Shown: positions 48,491 through 61,487 of the stretch, piece after piece
How the letters are laid out: each line of letters begins with the position of its first letter
Numbering within the stretch: the first letter of the stretch is position 1
From: Saprospirales bacterium
Lineage (GTDB): Bacteria; Bacteroidota; Bacteroidia; Chitinophagales; Saprospiraceae
Direction: 5' to 3'
Assembly: GCA_007695145.1 (NCBI GenBank)
Contig: REEI01000059.1
Coordinates: 1-64,000, forward strand
DNA length: 64,000 bases
The notes under the pieces: generated by a model
Seen by the model: only the letters and a program-made list of their open reading frames with translations
Told to the model about the DNA's origin: nothing
Databases searched by the model: none
Program-made: the position numbers and the translations under genes

Positions 48491-48901
48491 TTAAATCAGC
48501 CCGTGAGGATAGGAGTTCCCCCACCCTACCAAATACTATCGATCAGAACCCTAAATTAAACATCTGCAATCAACTGATGCAGTACGATCTAAAGAAGTAG
48601 CGGATCTAAAGATTGAATTGGGGAATTTTCAGCTACAATTCTCAATTGGAAGAATGCAATAAACATGCTGCCCAATGATGGAATTTAAAAAGTTGCCAAT
48701 AAAAGGTGTCCATTTTGTTGCAGTGTATAAAGCAAAAAGGGGGGTCTCTGGTTCAAATGCAGGCGTTTGAAGGGAAAACTATAATTCTGCTTTAGACCAG
48801 AGCCCCCTGCGGGTCATGCTTTCAGCCCGCATTAGACTATAAACCAATTTACCACAATTTGAAGCCTATTCTTATAATACCCTTTGTATTGATTGAGGTT
48901 T
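48491..48901. other. Intergenic region between convergent cysN and the lipoprotein gene
   Basis: No gene was found. The right half contains the inverted-repeat element described at 48734-48826; the left half (48491-48733) shows only short weak repeats. Confidence 0.5.
48734..48826 (-). terminator. Nested inverted repeats; likely terminator or structured RNA
   Basis: The arm at 48739-48752 (six G, then TCTCTGGT) pairs with ACCAGAGCCCCC at 48796-48807, giving a 12-bp stem with one bulge. Inside lies TTCAAA (48752-48757) with TTTGAA (48766-48771). Next to it TGCGGG (48808-48813) pairs with CCCGCA (48826-48831) around a 12-nt loop. On the minus strand the long stem is followed by TTTTT (complement of 48734-48738), as in an intrinsic terminator of the operon ending at 48902. 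It could also be a structured RNA. Confidence 0.5.
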
Positions 48902-50710
48902 TTAATCAAAGTGAAATCGGAATTCAAATAACCCTATCAATTCCGATCCGGTAGTTTTATCTCTCATGTGAAATACATTGGCCTCAAACTCAATATCTCC
49001 CCCGGTATAAGTGCTTAAATCCTCAAAATTGAATGAAATCTCAGCATCCGCCCAATCAATATCCGTTTGAGAACACTTCAGATCGATTACCTCTTTTACA
49101 ATTTGCACTGGAATTTGGAAATCTATATCCAAATCAAGGAGGAAGCAGTCACTATCCGCTCCAAATGCCACTCGGGTAACTTCAAAATTCTGGTCAATCG
49201 AAATATTAACGAAAATTCCATCATCAGGATTTTCAAGGAATAGGGAATCCCTTTCAACTAATTCCCCGGTATCGTTATCAAATAGTTGGAACTTTAGGTC
49301 TACCCTTAATCTTGGGTCGAAACATCCAAAAACATCATTTACTATCGGAATAGATGCTCCGAGATTCACCTTTCGAGCTTTCGAGATTTTGTTTCCATCA
49401 ATATCTATGATTTCGAAATCTGCCGTCTGCCAGCCACTGCAAACACTGAAAAAATATTGCTGTATATCTGGGGAGAATTCTCTTAGAAGGGTATTCCCGT
49501 TATTCAGTTCTAGCTTGATTATTCCATAACCAGGCATATCCTGAGGCCTGCAAAATCCGAAATCTAGAAATATATCTTTTCCCGGGGCTGCAGAAGTGGT
49601 AGTAATGGCGCCAAGATTTTCATTGGAGTGGAAAGTCCCGAGATTTTTGCTCAATAACAAACTTCCGCACAAGTCCCTAATTTCCATTTCTATTGGAAAT
49701 CCAGAGGGTAGCCCTCCGGCTTTAAACAAACCCTTGAAACCGGTTTCTAAATGAAATTCGTACCCAAAAAACTCCGGAGACCTCAAAATAATTTTCCCTT
49801 CAGACAATCCCTCCTCAATACCTGGAAATTTCAAATTTCCTTTAATGTCAATGGGATTGTTGCACAATACAGCTAGAGTCCAATAACCTGGTTCTTTAAG
49901 GATAAAGTCAAAATGTGCTCCACTCTGGTCAATATTTCGCATATTAACCCATTTGTATCCATCTTCGAAATAGCGATAAAGAGACAGTTCTCCAGAGGGA
50001 ACTGAACTCAATTCGGGTGTGGCAGGGAAGGAAATCTCAATATCTTCTGATGGTTGGAGTTCATTTCCATAAATATCTGAAAATTTCACCACCAAAACTC
50101 CCAACGGATAAATACCGGTTGACTTCCCTCCCTGATTAAGAGCGGTTCGACCTCCTGATTCAAGTTCAAAAAAGTAATCCTGGCCAGTATGAGTGTGTCT
50201 CAAAAATAGATCAACCGGCCCATTGTAGTTTCCAAATGAGCCTGGAGGGATAGTCACAGACAATCCTTCAGTAGTCTCTATCTTGGCTCCGTCTGAGGCA
50301 TGAAACGTCCTCAAGTTTTTCTTGGCAAGGGGTTGAATAGTTGTATTGCTAATTTCATTACTTTGAAGATGCACTTCTTTGTAGGCAGTAAAAGCCCCGT
50401 CTGCCTTTACCCTGACAACTGCAATCTCCCCTTTGTTTTTAAACCTTGGAAAAATAAAACTCCCATTTTCTGTAATGTTTATCCTTTTGAGATTGGTAGA
50501 GGAGACAATTTCAACTTCGGCATTGCTAAGCGGCTCTCCATTTTCGGCTATGATCTTTCCCATAAGACCAGACTCAACAATTTCAACCGGGTCCGGGAAC
50601 CCAGGTTCCTCCCCTTCAGTAAAAGTCTCCTTGATGCAGGAACTAAAGGTGAGTAGCAGAATTATAAAAATTACTGCTGATTGAAATGAATGCTTAATGC
50701 TAGCTCTCAT
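48902..50710 (-). CDS. Lipoprotein with carboxypeptidase-regulatory and ZU5-like domains
   Basis: The 602-residue product has a lipoprotein signal (LLLTFSSCIKE). A carboxypeptidase-regulatory-like domain follows (GLMGKIIAENGEPLSNAEVEI), then a region like ZU5 (TIPPGSFGNYNGPVDLFLRHTHTG) and further beta-rich sequence. It lies 65 nt after the barrel/anti-sigma gene, in the same minus-strand operon as an ECF sigma factor. It may be a surface partner that relays or receives the signal. Function unknown. Confidence 0.75.
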   Translation of the reverse strand: MRASIKHSFQSAVIFIILLLTFSSCIKETFTEGEEPGFPDPVEIVESGLMGKIIAENGEPLSNAEVEIVSSTNLKRINITENGSFIFPRFKNKGEIAVVRVKADGAFTAYKEVHLQSNEISNTTIQPLAKKNLRTFHASDGAKIETTEGLSVTIPPGSFGNYNGPVDLFLRHTHTGQDYFFELESGGRTALNQGGKSTGIYPLGVLVVKFSDIYGNELQPSEDIEISFPATPELSSVPSGELSLYRYFEDGYKWVNMRNIDQSGAHFDFILKEPGYWTLAVLCNNPIDIKGNLKFPGIEEGLSEGKIILRSPEFFGYEFHLETGFKGLFKAGGLPSGFPIEMEIRDLCGSLLLSKNLGTFHSNENLGAITTTSAAPGKDIFLDFGFCRPQDMPGYGIIKLELNNGNTLLREFSPDIQQYFFSVCSGWQTADFEIIDIDGNKISKARKVNLGASIPIVNDVFGCFDPRLRVDLKFQLFDNDTGELVERDSLFLENPDDGIFVNISIDQNFEVTRVAFGADSDCFLLDLDIDFQIPVQIVKEVIDLKCSQTDIDWADAEISFNFEDLSTYTGGDIEFEANVFHMRDKTTGSELIGLFEFRFHFD

Positions 50711-50775
50711 AATTGTTGAATTACATAAGATAAAAACCCCGGATTAGAAAAATGTGACAACCATAGCAAAAAAAA

Positions 50776-52455
50776 TTAAAAATTCTTTCTCATAACTACC
50801 GAAATTGCAGTTGTATTAAGGCTCTTTTCCAATCCTGATTCGTACTCTACTCGATTTTCCAAATCGATCATTTTCTCTCCTCTTATCAGAAGCTCAATTG
50901 TCTCGGTGAGACGATAACCCAATACAAGTCCAATAGACCATTCAGGAATCAATCCATTTTGATAATCACCATTGGTAATTTCACGGTATCCACTGCTTTC
51001 TAATGGCACGTATCCACTGTGACTTCGAACTATATTTAAGGTCAGACCAGAACTAAGCCCAAAACGAAACTTTCCTACAGGATACAAAAACTCAACCCTC
51101 AGAGGAATCCTAATAAAGTGGTGTGTATTGGGGGCAGTCAACCTACTATTTTGTCGAACAGATGCCAATACAGTGTCGCTTATCCACACAGGACCCGAAG
51201 ATCCTTCGTGATATAAGTAGGCCTGTTCGTTATAGAGCATTTTATAGTCAATTCGCGTCTCATCATAATCAAACTTATTGAGAATTCTTCGGTATTCCAA
51301 ACCAGTACTTATATTGAAATAGTCATTTACCCTCTTTCCTGCTGAAATTCCGGCTGAAAAACTGAAATAGGGGTTAATGGTTGCATTCCACTTGTCAACA
51401 AATCTATCATGAAATCTCGTGTGTGTAAATTGATGCCTGTTAAATTCCTGTCTATAGTATATATCCAGAAACCATTTACTCTGTTCTTTCACTTCATTAA
51501 CGACCGTTTTATTAAATTCTGAAATGGGCCTCAATTTAATGTTTGACAGAGAGAGAAAGCTCATAGCCCTACTTTCGAACCAATCCAGCATTAAAACATC
51601 CTTTAAAGGTTCCACAAGCAGCGATTCAGTGATGTTACTTTCTCGATTGCTTTTAAATTCAGCCAACCGTTTCTGCCAGCCTACTGGCCTATCCCTGTAT
51701 TCCTTTAGAAGGCTCAATCCATTTGATTTTGCGAGTAATTCCAAATTCCTCAATGGCAAACCAATCACTGCTCCCGTAGGATGGAGTTGGCTGGAAACTT
51801 CACCATCAATATTCTCAGGTAATGCAGAGACGTCCTGAGACTCCTGGCCCATAATCTCAGCTAATTCAGCATATTCATTTACTAAGTCATTACCATTATC
51901 CGTATGAGAAGTTCTCTCTAATGCACCAGACTCTTCACCTATTGTAAATGAGGGATTTATTGGGGGAATCCCAGCCTGAAGTTCAGTTTGGCTGATAGTT
52001 TCTAAATTACTGTATTCCAAACCTCTAACTTCATCTTCTAAAAGTGAAGAATGGCCATCAATTGTAAGCTGATCAGGTGATTCATGAGTCTGGTAAATCA
52101 ACCGATCTTGGTCAATTTCAATTTCCTGAACAGTCTGCTCAGCTCTTTCAGGAGCAGAGATGGTGGATTCAACTTCAGCAGGAATGTATTCTTCCTTCAT
52201 TGTTATTGGGTCGGCACTGCTGAGTTGGGTTTGATTAAAATCCTCCTGATAGTGGGAGACTACATAAAAAATGGCACCGATAAGCAAAATGGCTGAACCA
52301 GCTGAAGTCCAATACCAAAAAAGAGGAGCTCTTCTTCGGGTTTGAATATTTTGCCAAATTAAATCTTTTTCATCATCCGACAACCTAAACTGAAAAGCCC
52401 TTGCTGCTTTTTTAAAGAGCTGATCAGATTCACCATTAAAACCGGGCATATTCAT
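50776..52455 (-). CDS. Anti-sigma-like protein with inner-membrane helix and C-terminal outer-membrane barrel
   Basis: The 559-residue protein has an N-terminal cytoplasmic part (residues 1-44) with LFKKAARAFQFRLSDDEKDLIW, one transmembrane helix at about 45-67 (FWYWTSAGSAILLIGAIFYVV), and a polar acidic linker (about 70-325). The last 234 residues (from about 326) are strand-rich (YFSFSAGISAGKRVNDYFNISTG) and end in Phe, as outer-membrane barrels do. There is no N-terminal signal peptide. It follows the ECF sigma gene by 32 nt, so a role in holding that sigma factor is inferred. A start at 52455 or two codons later is possible. Confidence 0.75.
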   Translation of the reverse strand: MNMPGFNGESDQLFKKAARAFQFRLSDDEKDLIWQNIQTRRRAPLFWYWTSAGSAILLIGAIFYVVSHYQEDFNQTQLSSADPITMKEEYIPAEVESTISAPERAEQTVQEIEIDQDRLIYQTHESPDQLTIDGHSSLLEDEVRGLEYSNLETISQTELQAGIPPINPSFTIGEESGALERTSHTDNGNDLVNEYAELAEIMGQESQDVSALPENIDGEVSSQLHPTGAVIGLPLRNLELLAKSNGLSLLKEYRDRPVGWQKRLAEFKSNRESNITESLLVEPLKDVLMLDWFESRAMSFLSLSNIKLRPISEFNKTVVNEVKEQSKWFLDIYYRQEFNRHQFTHTRFHDRFVDKWNATINPYFSFSAGISAGKRVNDYFNISTGLEYRRILNKFDYDETRIDYKMLYNEQAYLYHEGSSGPVWISDTVLASVRQNSRLTAPNTHHFIRIPLRVEFLYPVGKFRFGLSSGLTLNIVRSHSGYVPLESSGYREITNGDYQNGLIPEWSIGLVLGYRLTETIELLIRGEKMIDLENRVEYESGLEKSLNTTAISVVMRKNF

Positions 52456-52487
52456 ATAAATGTATTTTAGCTTTATTTTTAGACAAC

Positions 52488-53033
52488 TTATCCTCCTTTA
52501 CTGATCTCAATTTTCCGATTGATCAACTTCTGTAATTTTTTTCTCGCTCGCGACAGATAAGATCGGGTATTAATTTCACTGATGCCGGTAATTTCCATAA
52601 TCTCTTTATGGGAATAACCCTCTACAACATATAAATTAAACACAATACGGTGCGATTCGGGTAACTTGCTGAGATGAATCAGCAGGTCATCCTGAAATAG
52701 GAACTCGGGTGTTTTTTTAACTCCATTGGAAGAAACTGAATGAAAGTCATCTGTCAGGAAATATTTTTTGTTTCTCCTCATCCACCTCAAAGCTTCCCGA
52801 CTAACAATGAGATGCAACCATCCCCAGAACTGTTCTTCCTCCCGGAATTCAAAGTCATTAATACTTCTAAAAATTCTGATATATGCTTCCTGAAGGACGT
52901 CCTTCGATGCATTCATGTCATTGGTGTATCTTAGAGCAGTTCCCATAAGTATATCTGAAGAGTATTCGAAAAACTCTTTCTGGGCCTTTCTGTTGCCCTT
53001 CTTGAGTTCCGGAAATATTGTCTTCAGATCCAC
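52488..53033 (-). CDS. ECF-type RNA polymerase sigma factor
   Basis: The 181-residue protein has sigma region 2 (LGTALRYTNDMNASKDVLQEAYIRIFRSI-type segment near residues 30-60, with FWGWLHLIVSREALRWMRR) and region 4 (LPESHRIVFNLYVVEGYSHKEIMEITG, SYLSRARKKLQKL). It is the first gene of the operon with the anti-sigma/barrel protein and the lipoprotein. It probably transcribes its own operon in response to an envelope signal. No -7 box of the usual type was seen immediately upstream. Confidence 0.93.
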   Translation of the reverse strand: MDLKTIFPELKKGNRKAQKEFFEYSSDILMGTALRYTNDMNASKDVLQEAYIRIFRSINDFEFREEEQFWGWLHLIVSREALRWMRRNKKYFLTDDFHSVSSNGVKKTPEFLFQDDLLIHLSKLPESHRIVFNLYVVEGYSHKEIMEITGISEINTRSYLSRARKKLQKLINRKIEISKGG

Positions 53034-53378
53034 AGTTCTAAGTTGATTTTATCCTTAAAAATAACCGCGGCCGACAAATTATCACCCTCACAGAAACATC
53101 ATAAGATTTACTCCTGGTGGTGAGCTGATTTTTTCCCAAAAATTATTGCCCGCAGTATATAACTATAGTACGATTGAACATATATTTAATTCAACCTGCA
53201 TTACATTAAAAGATTTTATGAGTAAAATGTGACAGTTGGGTGAAAATTTATTTATGAATAAACAATTTTTGCATTTGCCAATGTGCCACATGGATCGAAT
53301 AAAAGAATCAAATGAATAAGGTTTTCAATAAAGCTGCAGAGGATACCTTAAATTATTCAACCAGGCTCTTCTTTGACG
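53034..53378. other. Intergenic region upstream of the ECF operon
   Basis: No gene, RNA or clear hairpin was recognised. It should carry the promoter of the sigma-factor operon on the minus strand and the end of the DUF368 transcript. Confidence 0.4.
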
Positions 53379-54347
53379 TCATTTTGCTTTAAATCGCCTT
53401 ACATCAATCCGGTCTAAAACTAATATCAATACAAAACCAAGGATGGCGAAAAGGATGGTCAAACCGATAAAGGGATCACCAGATATGTAGTCTATCGGCA
53501 GTTTATTGGTTTCTGCAATTACACGCCAATCGCCGGAGAGTGGCAAGGTAGACTGAATGACCTCACCGCTTCTGTCCATAAAAAGGTAAGGATCTCTCCA
53601 TGGCCATATTTTATTGAGGGAACCAATCATGAATCCACACAGCAATCCAAAAACAGGTCCTTTGTATTGTTTCAACAGCCATGAGACCACCCTGACAAAG
53701 ACGAGCAAACCCATCAGAGCACCTACCCCAAAAACAATAATAACTACAAGAGATTCAAATTCTCGGGTTTCAATAAAGTTTCGGGTCTCTCCCAGGATAA
53801 TGGTATACATTCCCATTAAAAGAAGGATAAAACTACCGGAAATGCCGGGCAAAATTAGTGCGCAAACAGCAATGGATCCTGCGATGAACACGGAGGTGTA
53901 AGCGGAAGAACCTTCGGCTGGAGTAATTACAGTAATGTAATAGGCGACCACTGAACCGGCTATTAGCATTCCAAGGACCTTGTAGTCAATGGAGTCGATT
54001 CGCTTCAGAATGTACCAAACCGATGCAGTTATCAATCCAAAAAAGAAACCCCAAACTACTGGAGGATGGCTTTCAAGTAAACTGGAAATCACCAAGACCC
54101 CAATGACCAATCCGGATACCATTCCAATCAGAAGTGAAATTAAGAATGGCCCATCTACAGAATTCCAGGCTGATTGAATTTGACCATTCACAACGTTTTT
54201 GGCCAAAGGCAAATTAAATGCTTTTATGGTCTCAATAAGCTTTTCATAAATTCCGGTAATAAACGCTATTGTTCCGCCTGATACACCGGGAATAACTTCA
54301 GCGATACCTATGGCCATACCGCGGAGAAGATTCGCAATTTTTTCCAT
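53379..54347 (-). CDS. DUF368 family inner-membrane protein
   Basis: The 322-residue polytopic membrane protein starts with the family signature GMAIGIAEVIPGVSGGTIAFITGIYEKL. A second signature, ALILPGISGSFILLLMGMY, lies in the middle. About 8-9 helices are predicted. DUF368 (PopT) proteins have been linked to undecaprenyl-phosphate translocation in other bacteria; that role is known for the family and inferred here. The gene is monocistronic. Confidence 0.92.
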   Translation of the reverse strand: MEKIANLLRGMAIGIAEVIPGVSGGTIAFITGIYEKLIETIKAFNLPLAKNVVNGQIQSAWNSVDGPFLISLLIGMVSGLVIGVLVISSLLESHPPVVWGFFFGLITASVWYILKRIDSIDYKVLGMLIAGSVVAYYITVITPAEGSSAYTSVFIAGSIAVCALILPGISGSFILLLMGMYTIILGETRNFIETREFESLVVIIVFGVGALMGLLVFVRVVSWLLKQYKGPVFGLLCGFMIGSLNKIWPWRDPYLFMDRSGEVIQSTLPLSGDWRVIAETNKLPIDYISGDPFIGLTILFAILGFVLILVLDRIDVRRFKAK

Positions 54348-60830: not shown

Positions 60831-61487
60831 ATGGATCAATTGGATAACTTCATAAAGCAATTAAAAAATCACAGACCTGCCGTCTCAAAAACGGAGTGGC
60901 TAAGACTCAAGGGAATTTTGCGACAACAGAAAACAAACAATTCACCCAGGCAGAAAATCAACAACATCCGAATTCCTCTTTCAATAGCTGCAGGGATGCT
61001 GCTGTTGATTGGAGTAGGCTTAACTCTCTTTCTTTCAGAGAGCAAAACAGAGCAAAACCTGGTTTCTTCGAAAGTTGAAAGTGAAAGGAATGCTATGGTA
61101 GCCTCCCTTCAGATGGACCGATTGCATCACCGCGGAGAATTGGTAACCTTTAGAGAAGGGGCACCCACGTCAGTAAGTTTGTCCCCTGAACTTGGTGATC
61201 CTTACCATGCGACGCTGCCTAATGGGGACAATTGGCTTATTCACCTCAAACTGGTTCGAGAAAGAGACCATTGCGAAGCCACTATAAAATCGATCAATGA
61301 CAAGGCAATGCAATTGCAGCTTGAAAAATTTGATGATGAGTGCAATGAATTTCGATCTGACAGCAAGAAAGCTGAGATGAAATGGGTGGAGAAAAACGGG
61401 GAAGAGCGCATTGTTCTGGTATTGGCTGATGGATTTTCAAGTCAAATTGAAGCACCTATCACCCTAGAACTTAAGAGGATTTATTAA
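60831..61487 (+). CDS. Single-helix membrane protein, probable anti-sigma factor
   Basis: The 218-residue protein has a short N-terminal cytoplasmic part (residues 1-45: LDNFIKQLKNHRPAVSKTEWLRL), one membrane helix at about 46-67 (IPLSIAAGMLLLIGVGLTLFL) and a periplasmic domain rich in charged residues. Its position directly after an ECF sigma gene and its topology fit an anti-sigma factor. No zinc-binding ASD motif is seen. Unlike its counterpart at 50776-52455 it has no barrel. Confidence 0.7.
   Translation: MDQLDNFIKQLKNHRPAVSKTEWLRLKGILRQQKTNNSPRQKINNIRIPLSIAAGMLLLIGVGLTLFLSESKTEQNLVSSKVESERNAMVASLQMDRLHHRGELVTFREGAPTSVSLSPELGDPYHATLPNGDNWLIHLKLVRERDHCEATIKSINDKAMQLQLEKFDDECNEFRSDSKKAEMKWVEKNGEERIVLVLADGFSSQIEAPITLELKRIY

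Follow-up and report, generated by a model that had tools for sequence, protein, structure and literature searches.

In the FecI-FecR-FecA system, a signal at the outer membrane reaches an ECF sigma factor by way of an inner-membrane anti-sigma factor. A class of proteins called Dma ("dual membrane-spanning anti-sigma") is said to have been named in Bacteroides thetaiotaomicron in a founding PNAS paper of 2024. According to published reports, spanning anti-sigma factors with a C-terminal barrel occur in Phocaeicola (PMC9308784), and Reo is the name given to such an anti-sigma factor in PMC13114119. Disruption of the anti-sigma factor of the Phocaeicola pair frees the sigma factor, and the toxin BcpT raises the sigma transcript 33-fold (PMC9308784). 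Both BcpT and bacteroidetocin A, an inhibitor of BamA, induce the ecfO-reo pair, for which outer-membrane stress was proposed as the signal (PMC13114119). Dma2 acts through Das2, and an unknown glycan was hypothesised for Dma2 by Pardue et al. (PMC13088901). NigD lipoproteins belong to the published regulons of Dma1 (PMC13088901) and EcfO (PMC13114119). The signal sensed by Dma and Reo proteins is described as unknown or merely proposed (PMC13088901; PMC13114119).

The DNA analysed here, hereafter the window, is a stretch of 64,000 nucleotides from a Saprospirales bacterium. Three genes follow one another on its minus strand: an ECF sigma factor gene (52488-53033), a single open reading frame for a 559-residue protein (50776-52455, ATG start) and a lipoprotein gene (48902-50710), with gaps of 32 nt and 65 bases, respectively. 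The sigma factor, presumed to be cognate, has 181 residues and a GTG start and matches the Pfam sigma70_r2 and r4_2 domains (PF04542, 5.9e-11; PF08281, 5.1e-13). It is 57% identical to the sigma factor of a same-genus relative with the same layout (locus L031). Dma/Reo proteins are expected to pair with sigma factors of group ECF21; for the window's sigma factor, a scan of Pfam and the 25 best NCBIfam rows gave only general or other ECF models. No tandem DNA repeats were found in 48800-53400, and comparison by eye of the regions upstream of the sigma gene in five loci revealed no clear common motif.

An initial annotation, made from the letters alone, had proposed that the gene after the sigma factor encodes a protein without signal peptide that could tie an outer-membrane barrel to a cytoplasmic sigma factor. 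That interpretation was largely right, but the class had already been published as Dma/Reo. Sequence and hydropathy confirmed the absence of an N-terminal signal sequence, and the sole above-threshold hydropathy peak lies at residues 49-67. In an AlphaFold2 model built on a 31-row alignment, the presumed sigma-binding cytoplasmic module (residues 1-44; 52324-52455, minus strand) contains two short helices (9-20 and 27-40) and the conserved residues D11 and W34. It is followed by a single helix (45-77) that includes the predicted inner-membrane segment (residues 45-67; 52255-52323, minus strand). The pLDDT is below 50 across most of residues 77-321, which indicates a disordered tether. This periplasmic linker (residues 78-327; 51475-52224, minus strand) carries a net charge of -26 over residues 78-322.

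The long linker and the strand-rich C-terminus ending in Phe, both part of the initial description, were also borne out by the model, with boundaries that had been right to within a few residues. Residues 328-559 (50779-51474, minus strand) are predicted as an outer-membrane beta-barrel of the OmpA/NspA/OmpW type, with eight main strands, pLDDT values of mostly 90-98 and Phe559 as final residue. The top Foldseek match of the barrel model was OmpA (E 2.7e-7), and VIA-align over about residues 323-559 gave Z scores of 16.8 with OmpA, 16.7 with NspA, 16.0 with OprF and 15.8 with OmpW. A chain that links an inner-membrane helix to an outer-membrane barrel is thus supported by prediction. Since the barrel has an even number of strands and its N terminus would be periplasmic, loops 346-364, 408-428, 485-501 and 532-541 are expected to lie outside the cell.

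The sequence of the window protein is very divergent and matches no Pfam or NCBIfam family; within alignment A4, which includes Bacteroidales, it is 11-17% identical to each of the remaining 30 rows. Of 21 aligned spanning proteins, PF13568 and PF13505 match five and four, respectively, the window protein not being among them, and no match in a PDB sequence search with a 21-row profile rose above chance level (best E 0.14). A barrel HMM built from 27 loci, with Bacteroidales rows but without the window and its genome, matches the window protein at E 1e-21. The linker is poorly conserved and varies from 91 to 260 residues in 51 aligned rows (median 174), as measured from the strongest hydropathy peak among the first 120 residues; the shortest value belongs to a row with a doubtful helix call (L149), and two of the rows, L037 and L111, are almost identical. 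The window's linker falls within this range, and a linker of at least 91 residues is long enough for crossing a periplasm.

Homologues with the same layout downstream of ECF genes, for which the initial annotation had suggested a search, recur widely. Relatives of the window protein were found in 17 of 59 other genomes (18 of 60 if the window's own is counted), and an ECF sigma gene is also present in 19 of the 22 retrieved loci. In two of the three sigma-less loci (L033 and L049), the contig breaks off. The third (L028, 176-4633) encodes a same-genus spanning protein whose barrel is the closest found; upstream of it lies coding sequence resembling DNA polymerase I, and no sigma gene is adjacent. 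Either this is an orphan copy or the draft contig was misjoined. Fused members also occur outside Bacteroidales, e.g., in Saprospiraceae and Neolewinella records. The possibility that the window gene is an artefactual fusion was ruled out by single-ORF homologues in many loci.

Several fused members are present within the window's own genome. Sixteen sigma sites were examined there, leaving out two weak sigma matches on contigs 32 and 86. Four of these are followed by a barrel-supported protein, as judged with the HMM built without that genome: the window (1e-21), L081 (1.4e-5), L083 (7.3e-38) and L084 (9.3e-13). The protein at L090 has the right size and a membrane helix, with no clear barrel score, and the HMM detected no clear N-terminal module in L084. 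A different arrangement was seen on contig 118 (L086), where an ECF sigma gene is followed by a gene for a 324-residue membrane protein and then by an overlapping 381-residue ORF that matches a separate-barrel HMM at E 1.5e-39. The N terminus of the 324-residue protein is not matched by the module HMMs, and the pair is perhaps a second kind of anti-sigma factor with a separate barrel.

To compare gene order over a wider range, we surveyed the best 80 of 585 relatives obtained with one peptide pattern and a sigma profile; proportions among them are not population estimates. A first barrel HMM, built from 21 proteins (the window protein and relatives), was positive at E<1e-3 for the gene after the sigma gene in 35 of the 78 loci that have such a gene, one of the 35 being L111, whose sigma factor is identical to that of seed locus L037. 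None of the 728 other ORFs of at least 150 residues in those loci reached the same threshold. Refined HMMs divided these best 80 of 585 into 37 loci with the barrel fused to the anti-sigma factor, 24 split loci, and 19 that were other or cut. In the split loci, a short anti-sigma factor of 215-326 residues without barrel is followed by a separate gene that matches the separate-barrel HMM. The refined HMMs are partly self-seeded, as 30 of the 37 fused and 22 of the 24 split loci were seeds; the unseeded ones are L107, L124, L126, L127, L149, L150 and L165 (fused) and L098 and L100 (split).

Among loci of this best-80 set with at least 1 kb downstream, a separate barrel gene is present in 24 of 36 non-fused and in none of 35 fused loci (Fisher p 3e-10); left out of this test were L097 and L153 (no gene before the contig end), L121, L157, L173, L107 and L126 (cut), and L106 and L148 (less than 1 kb downstream). 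A few assignments call for comment. L127 was counted as fused although its barrel occupies an ORF of its own, which follows a 150-residue N-terminal ORF; a frameshift is likely, because its sigma factor and that of the single-ORF locus L164 are neighbours on the tree and are joined by very short branches. The third gene of the fused locus L143 has a borderline barrel score (E 0.0096, against a threshold of 1e-3), and two proteins classed as other, L106 (528 residues) and L160 (550 residues), may be fused proteins missed by the HMM. Of 22 separate barrels, 21 scored positive for a signal sequence, the exception being L108 (L098 and L100 are outside this set). In L108, L112, L114, L117 and L152, the short anti-sigma gene is followed by two barrel genes in succession.

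The N-terminal module is common to both kinds. An HMM from 27 fused proteins matches all 24 split anti-sigma factors, the HMM from the split ones matches 23 of the 27 fused proteins, and hhalign aligns the two with a probability of 99.3 (E 3.9e-20). The window protein itself is matched at E 2.7e-5 by the split HMM and only at E 0.027 by the fused one. Within the best 80 of 585, the module was found in 71 of the 78 genes that follow such sigma genes, by means of an HMM for which 46 of these genes were seeds. This distribution, with a gene order common across Bacteroidota loci, speaks against the possibility that the window protein is an inner-membrane-anchored barrel unrelated to the sigma factor and a mere neighbour of it. 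Although the pairing is read here from sequence, and the copy in L028 has no sigma neighbour, we regard such a chance association as very improbable.

In four of the 78 genes after a sigma gene, the module is present in two to four tandem copies before the membrane helix (L126, residues 3-169; L171, 8-116; L159, 7-67; L130, 1-66). It looks as if one such anti-sigma factor could hold several sigma molecules. Furthermore, a Treponema-labelled contig (L121) carries the N-terminal module and a sigma factor that groups among Bacteroidales ones, which reflects either a binning error or transfer.

The initial annotation had set the window protein in contrast to the short anti-sigma factor encoded at 60831-61487 of the window. 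One side of this contrast stands: the 218-residue protein lacks a barrel match, and none of the Pfam and NCBIfam families passed its cut-off. On the other hand, the N-terminal module of the window protein is present in it as well (HMM E 1.1e-8), which makes the two proteins kin and not opposites. The barrels of fused and split loci also appear to be related. In hhalign, 164 columns of their profiles could be aligned (probability 90.3, E 1.5e-6; sigma-profile control, 0.03), and PF13568 matches 15 of 22 separate barrels, compared with the five of 21 spanning proteins given above. Only a minority of the separate barrels are matched by the fused-barrel HMM below E 0.01, and the profile comparison establishes relatedness, not that the two are each other's nearest relatives.

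On the sigma tree, fused and split kinds cluster, yet at least three changes between them are needed. This is a quick tree in which 39 of 94 inner branches are open and some relatives were labelled fused by homology to the window protein; an AU test against a single origin of the split loci was marginal (p 0.038). Division into two genes in relatives had been named beforehand as an outcome that would count against a spanning chain. It was indeed found, in 24 of the best 80 of 585 loci, without overturning the topology, since the window and almost all of the 37 fused loci encode the fused form as a single intact ORF. The split loci instead suggest how the spanning protein arose. Dma would seem to be a three-gene system in fused form, the split kind of which was not found in the papers searched.

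That two separate genes can encode the same parts raises the question of whether the window protein is processed, i.e., whether its inner-membrane anti-sigma part and its barrel part come apart after export and act as two proteins. The 24 split loci among the best 80 of 585 are what favours such processing. The linkers, however, measure about 91 residues or more in all 51 aligned rows, which suggests that their length matters, and the published reports describe or predict a spanning protein (PMC13088901; PMC9308784; PMC13114119). We therefore consider processing unlikely.

The reading we prefer, and hold to be very probable, is that the window protein is a Dma/Reo-type anti-sigma factor that represses its sigma factor by tethering and is relieved by disturbance of the barrel or the outer membrane. 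The N-terminal 44 residues would hold the ECF sigma factor at the inner membrane, one helix would cross this membrane, and the flexible acidic linker would cross the periplasm. The chain would end as an eight-stranded barrel in the outer membrane, with both N and C termini toward the periplasm. A change in the barrel or the outer membrane, such as failed assembly, damage or binding at the outer loops, would then cause the anti-sigma factor to let go of the sigma factor, which, once free, would transcribe its own operon, perhaps including the neighbouring lipoprotein gene. For a relative, this view of repression by tethering draws on the toxin induction of the Phocaeicola pair. Gene order, the common N-terminal module and the family-wide layout are established here, as are, by prediction, the topology and the barrel fold. 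Anti-sigma activity is assigned to the window protein from its published relatives and the conserved gene order, and by the same analogy we infer sigma binding, membrane tethering in vivo, the signal and the release step.

In the window's own subfamily, conservation within the barrel peaks at the predicted extracellular loop L2 (residues 408-428; 51172-51234, minus strand), with the motif AY.Y....G..VW..D. Among nine proteins, a set picked after the loop motif had been noticed, mean pairwise identity is 0.42 in L2 versus 0.23-0.31 in the strands; L2 is among the top 5 of 212 overlapping windows, and A412, Y413 and W424 are invariant. In the wider set of 21 proteins, L2 is unremarkable (148th of 212), and conservation is highest in the strands, not in the loops. 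The loop is therefore a candidate sensing or partner site, as far as conservation can tell, and its subfamily-specific conservation is more readily explained by a specific ligand or partner than by a general sensing of damage. These properties give some weight to the idea that the barrel is a surface receptor, whose outer loops, chiefly L2, would recognise a particular glycan or, should the neighbouring lipoprotein sit on the surface, be plugged by it, and would pass the signal to the sigma factor as in cell-surface signalling. The glycan hypothesis of Pardue et al. for Dma2 points in the same direction (PMC13088901).

The lipoprotein encoded next to the window protein could be the partner in such a receptor. 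The initial annotation had called the third gene a lipoprotein that could complete the signalling unit. The first half of this statement stands: the 602-residue product, a chain of predicted beta-domains, has a signal sequence and a lipobox (...LTFSSC, Cys25). It has no NigD match in Pfam. Its model, from seven rows, has a mean pLDDT of 65, with residues 466-602 below 50, and no function was drawn from the structure, for which all matches had low TM scores (pilins, Cna-B-type adhesins, ankyrin ZU5). Support for the second half is weaker. Within the best 80 of 585, seven of the 37 fused loci and none of the 24 split ones have homologues (Fisher p 0.036), a test that ignores phylogeny while the cases are lineage-clustered, and the HMM was built with five of the seven loci found.

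Homologues with strong E-values are also present in eight further relatives' loci. The order sigma factor, spanning protein, lipoprotein recurs in four same-genus relatives (L029, L030, L031 and L032), whereas in L034, L037, L038 and L044 the lipoprotein gene is instead upstream of the sigma gene. A crude lipobox rule, which misses known cases such as L118 and L170, finds a lipoprotein neighbour for 10 of the 37 fused loci and 2 of the 24 split ones (best 80 of 585), which leaves most fused loci with none by this rule. Three of seven Bacteroidales third genes scanned are NigD_N-like (L118, L132 and L135; Tannerella, Tannerellaceae and Parabacteroides), in agreement with the NigD lipoproteins published for the Dma1 and EcfO regulons. 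A lipoprotein neighbour thus recurs, not everywhere, and its family changes between lineages. In L083 (6979-7947) and L048 (7626-8579), the third gene after the spanning anti-sigma gene encodes a putative lipoprotein of about 320 residues; the two look alike by eye and have no Pfam match.

For a surface receptor, the restriction of the window's lipoprotein family to fused loci in the survey is favourable, but the family is also found beside fused loci outside the subfamily (L037, L038, L044, L170 and others) and was not seen downstream of subfamily member L033, whose upstream side is cut. L2 and the lipoprotein therefore do not map one to one. The variation of lipoprotein families by lineage and the choice of the subfamily after its motif had been noticed weaken the case further, and published induction was by envelope-damaging toxins (PMC9308784; PMC13114119). 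On balance, we give ligand reception at the surface clearly less than an even chance.

Induction of the Phocaeicola pair by both BcpT and bacteroidetocin A (PMC9308784; PMC13114119) accords with the barrel acting as a test substrate of the barrel-assembly machinery, whose failed insertion would lead to proteolysis that frees the sigma factor. The concentration of conserved positions in the strands of the wider family is in line with such a role. No protease or cleavage site was identified, however, the conserved L2 would be left unexplained, and term searches of two papers on the Bacteroidota assembly machinery found no mention of sigma factors or stress responses. To this sensing of assembly we assign a little less than an even chance. 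It differs from ligand reception over the last step, not over the class of the protein.

Returning to tethering by a Dma/Reo-type anti-sigma factor, the survey allows a broader proposal, which we put forward as a possibility with clearly less than an even chance: a modular device that exists as one chain or as two genes, with more than one evolutionary switch between them, in which the barrel is necessary in both forms and L2, possibly with the lipoprotein, is the input site. The split version provides a natural two-gene control. If the separate barrel controls the anti-sigma factor, the covalent tether is not essential and the barrel can be tested in trans. The conserved L2 likewise offers a concrete site for mutation.

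Compared with FecI-FecR-FecA, in which the receptor is a separate TonB-dependent protein, the barrel of the window protein is small and part of the anti-sigma chain itself. The split triad of ECF sigma factor, short anti-sigma factor and separate barrel resembles the window in its homologous N-terminal module and related barrel profile, and differs from it by a barrel with its own gene and, as a rule, its own signal sequence, and by an anti-sigma factor of 215-326 residues. This three-gene counterpart and the conserved L2 of the window's subfamily were not found in the papers searched; the split form, or anti-sigma factors in Saprospiraceae, were not recognised in the titles and abstract beginnings of the papers listed, with many subscription papers outside this coverage.

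As in EcfO-Reo of Phocaeicola vulgatus and Bacteroides fragilis, the window combines an ECF sigma factor with a large periplasm-spanning anti-sigma factor that has an outer-membrane barrel (PMC9308784; PMC13114119); unlike the EcfO regulon with its NigD lipoproteins, its third gene has no NigD match. There is a close correspondence also with Dma1/Das1 and Dma2/Das2 of Bacteroides thetaiotaomicron, which share the one helix, the disordered tether, the C-terminal barrel and the adjacent ECF sigma factor, and whose operons also contain a further gene (PMC13088901); their N-terminal sigma-binding segment has its presumed counterpart in residues 1-44 of the window protein. In the window, this neighbour is an unrelated lipoprotein of about 600 residues. 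The comparison with Dma1-Dma3 is by their descriptions, and sequence homology rests on other Bacteroidales rows. The four-part description of the class fits the window protein, with the N-terminal module as the putative sigma-binding part, making it an additional member of the published Dma/Reo anti-sigma factors.
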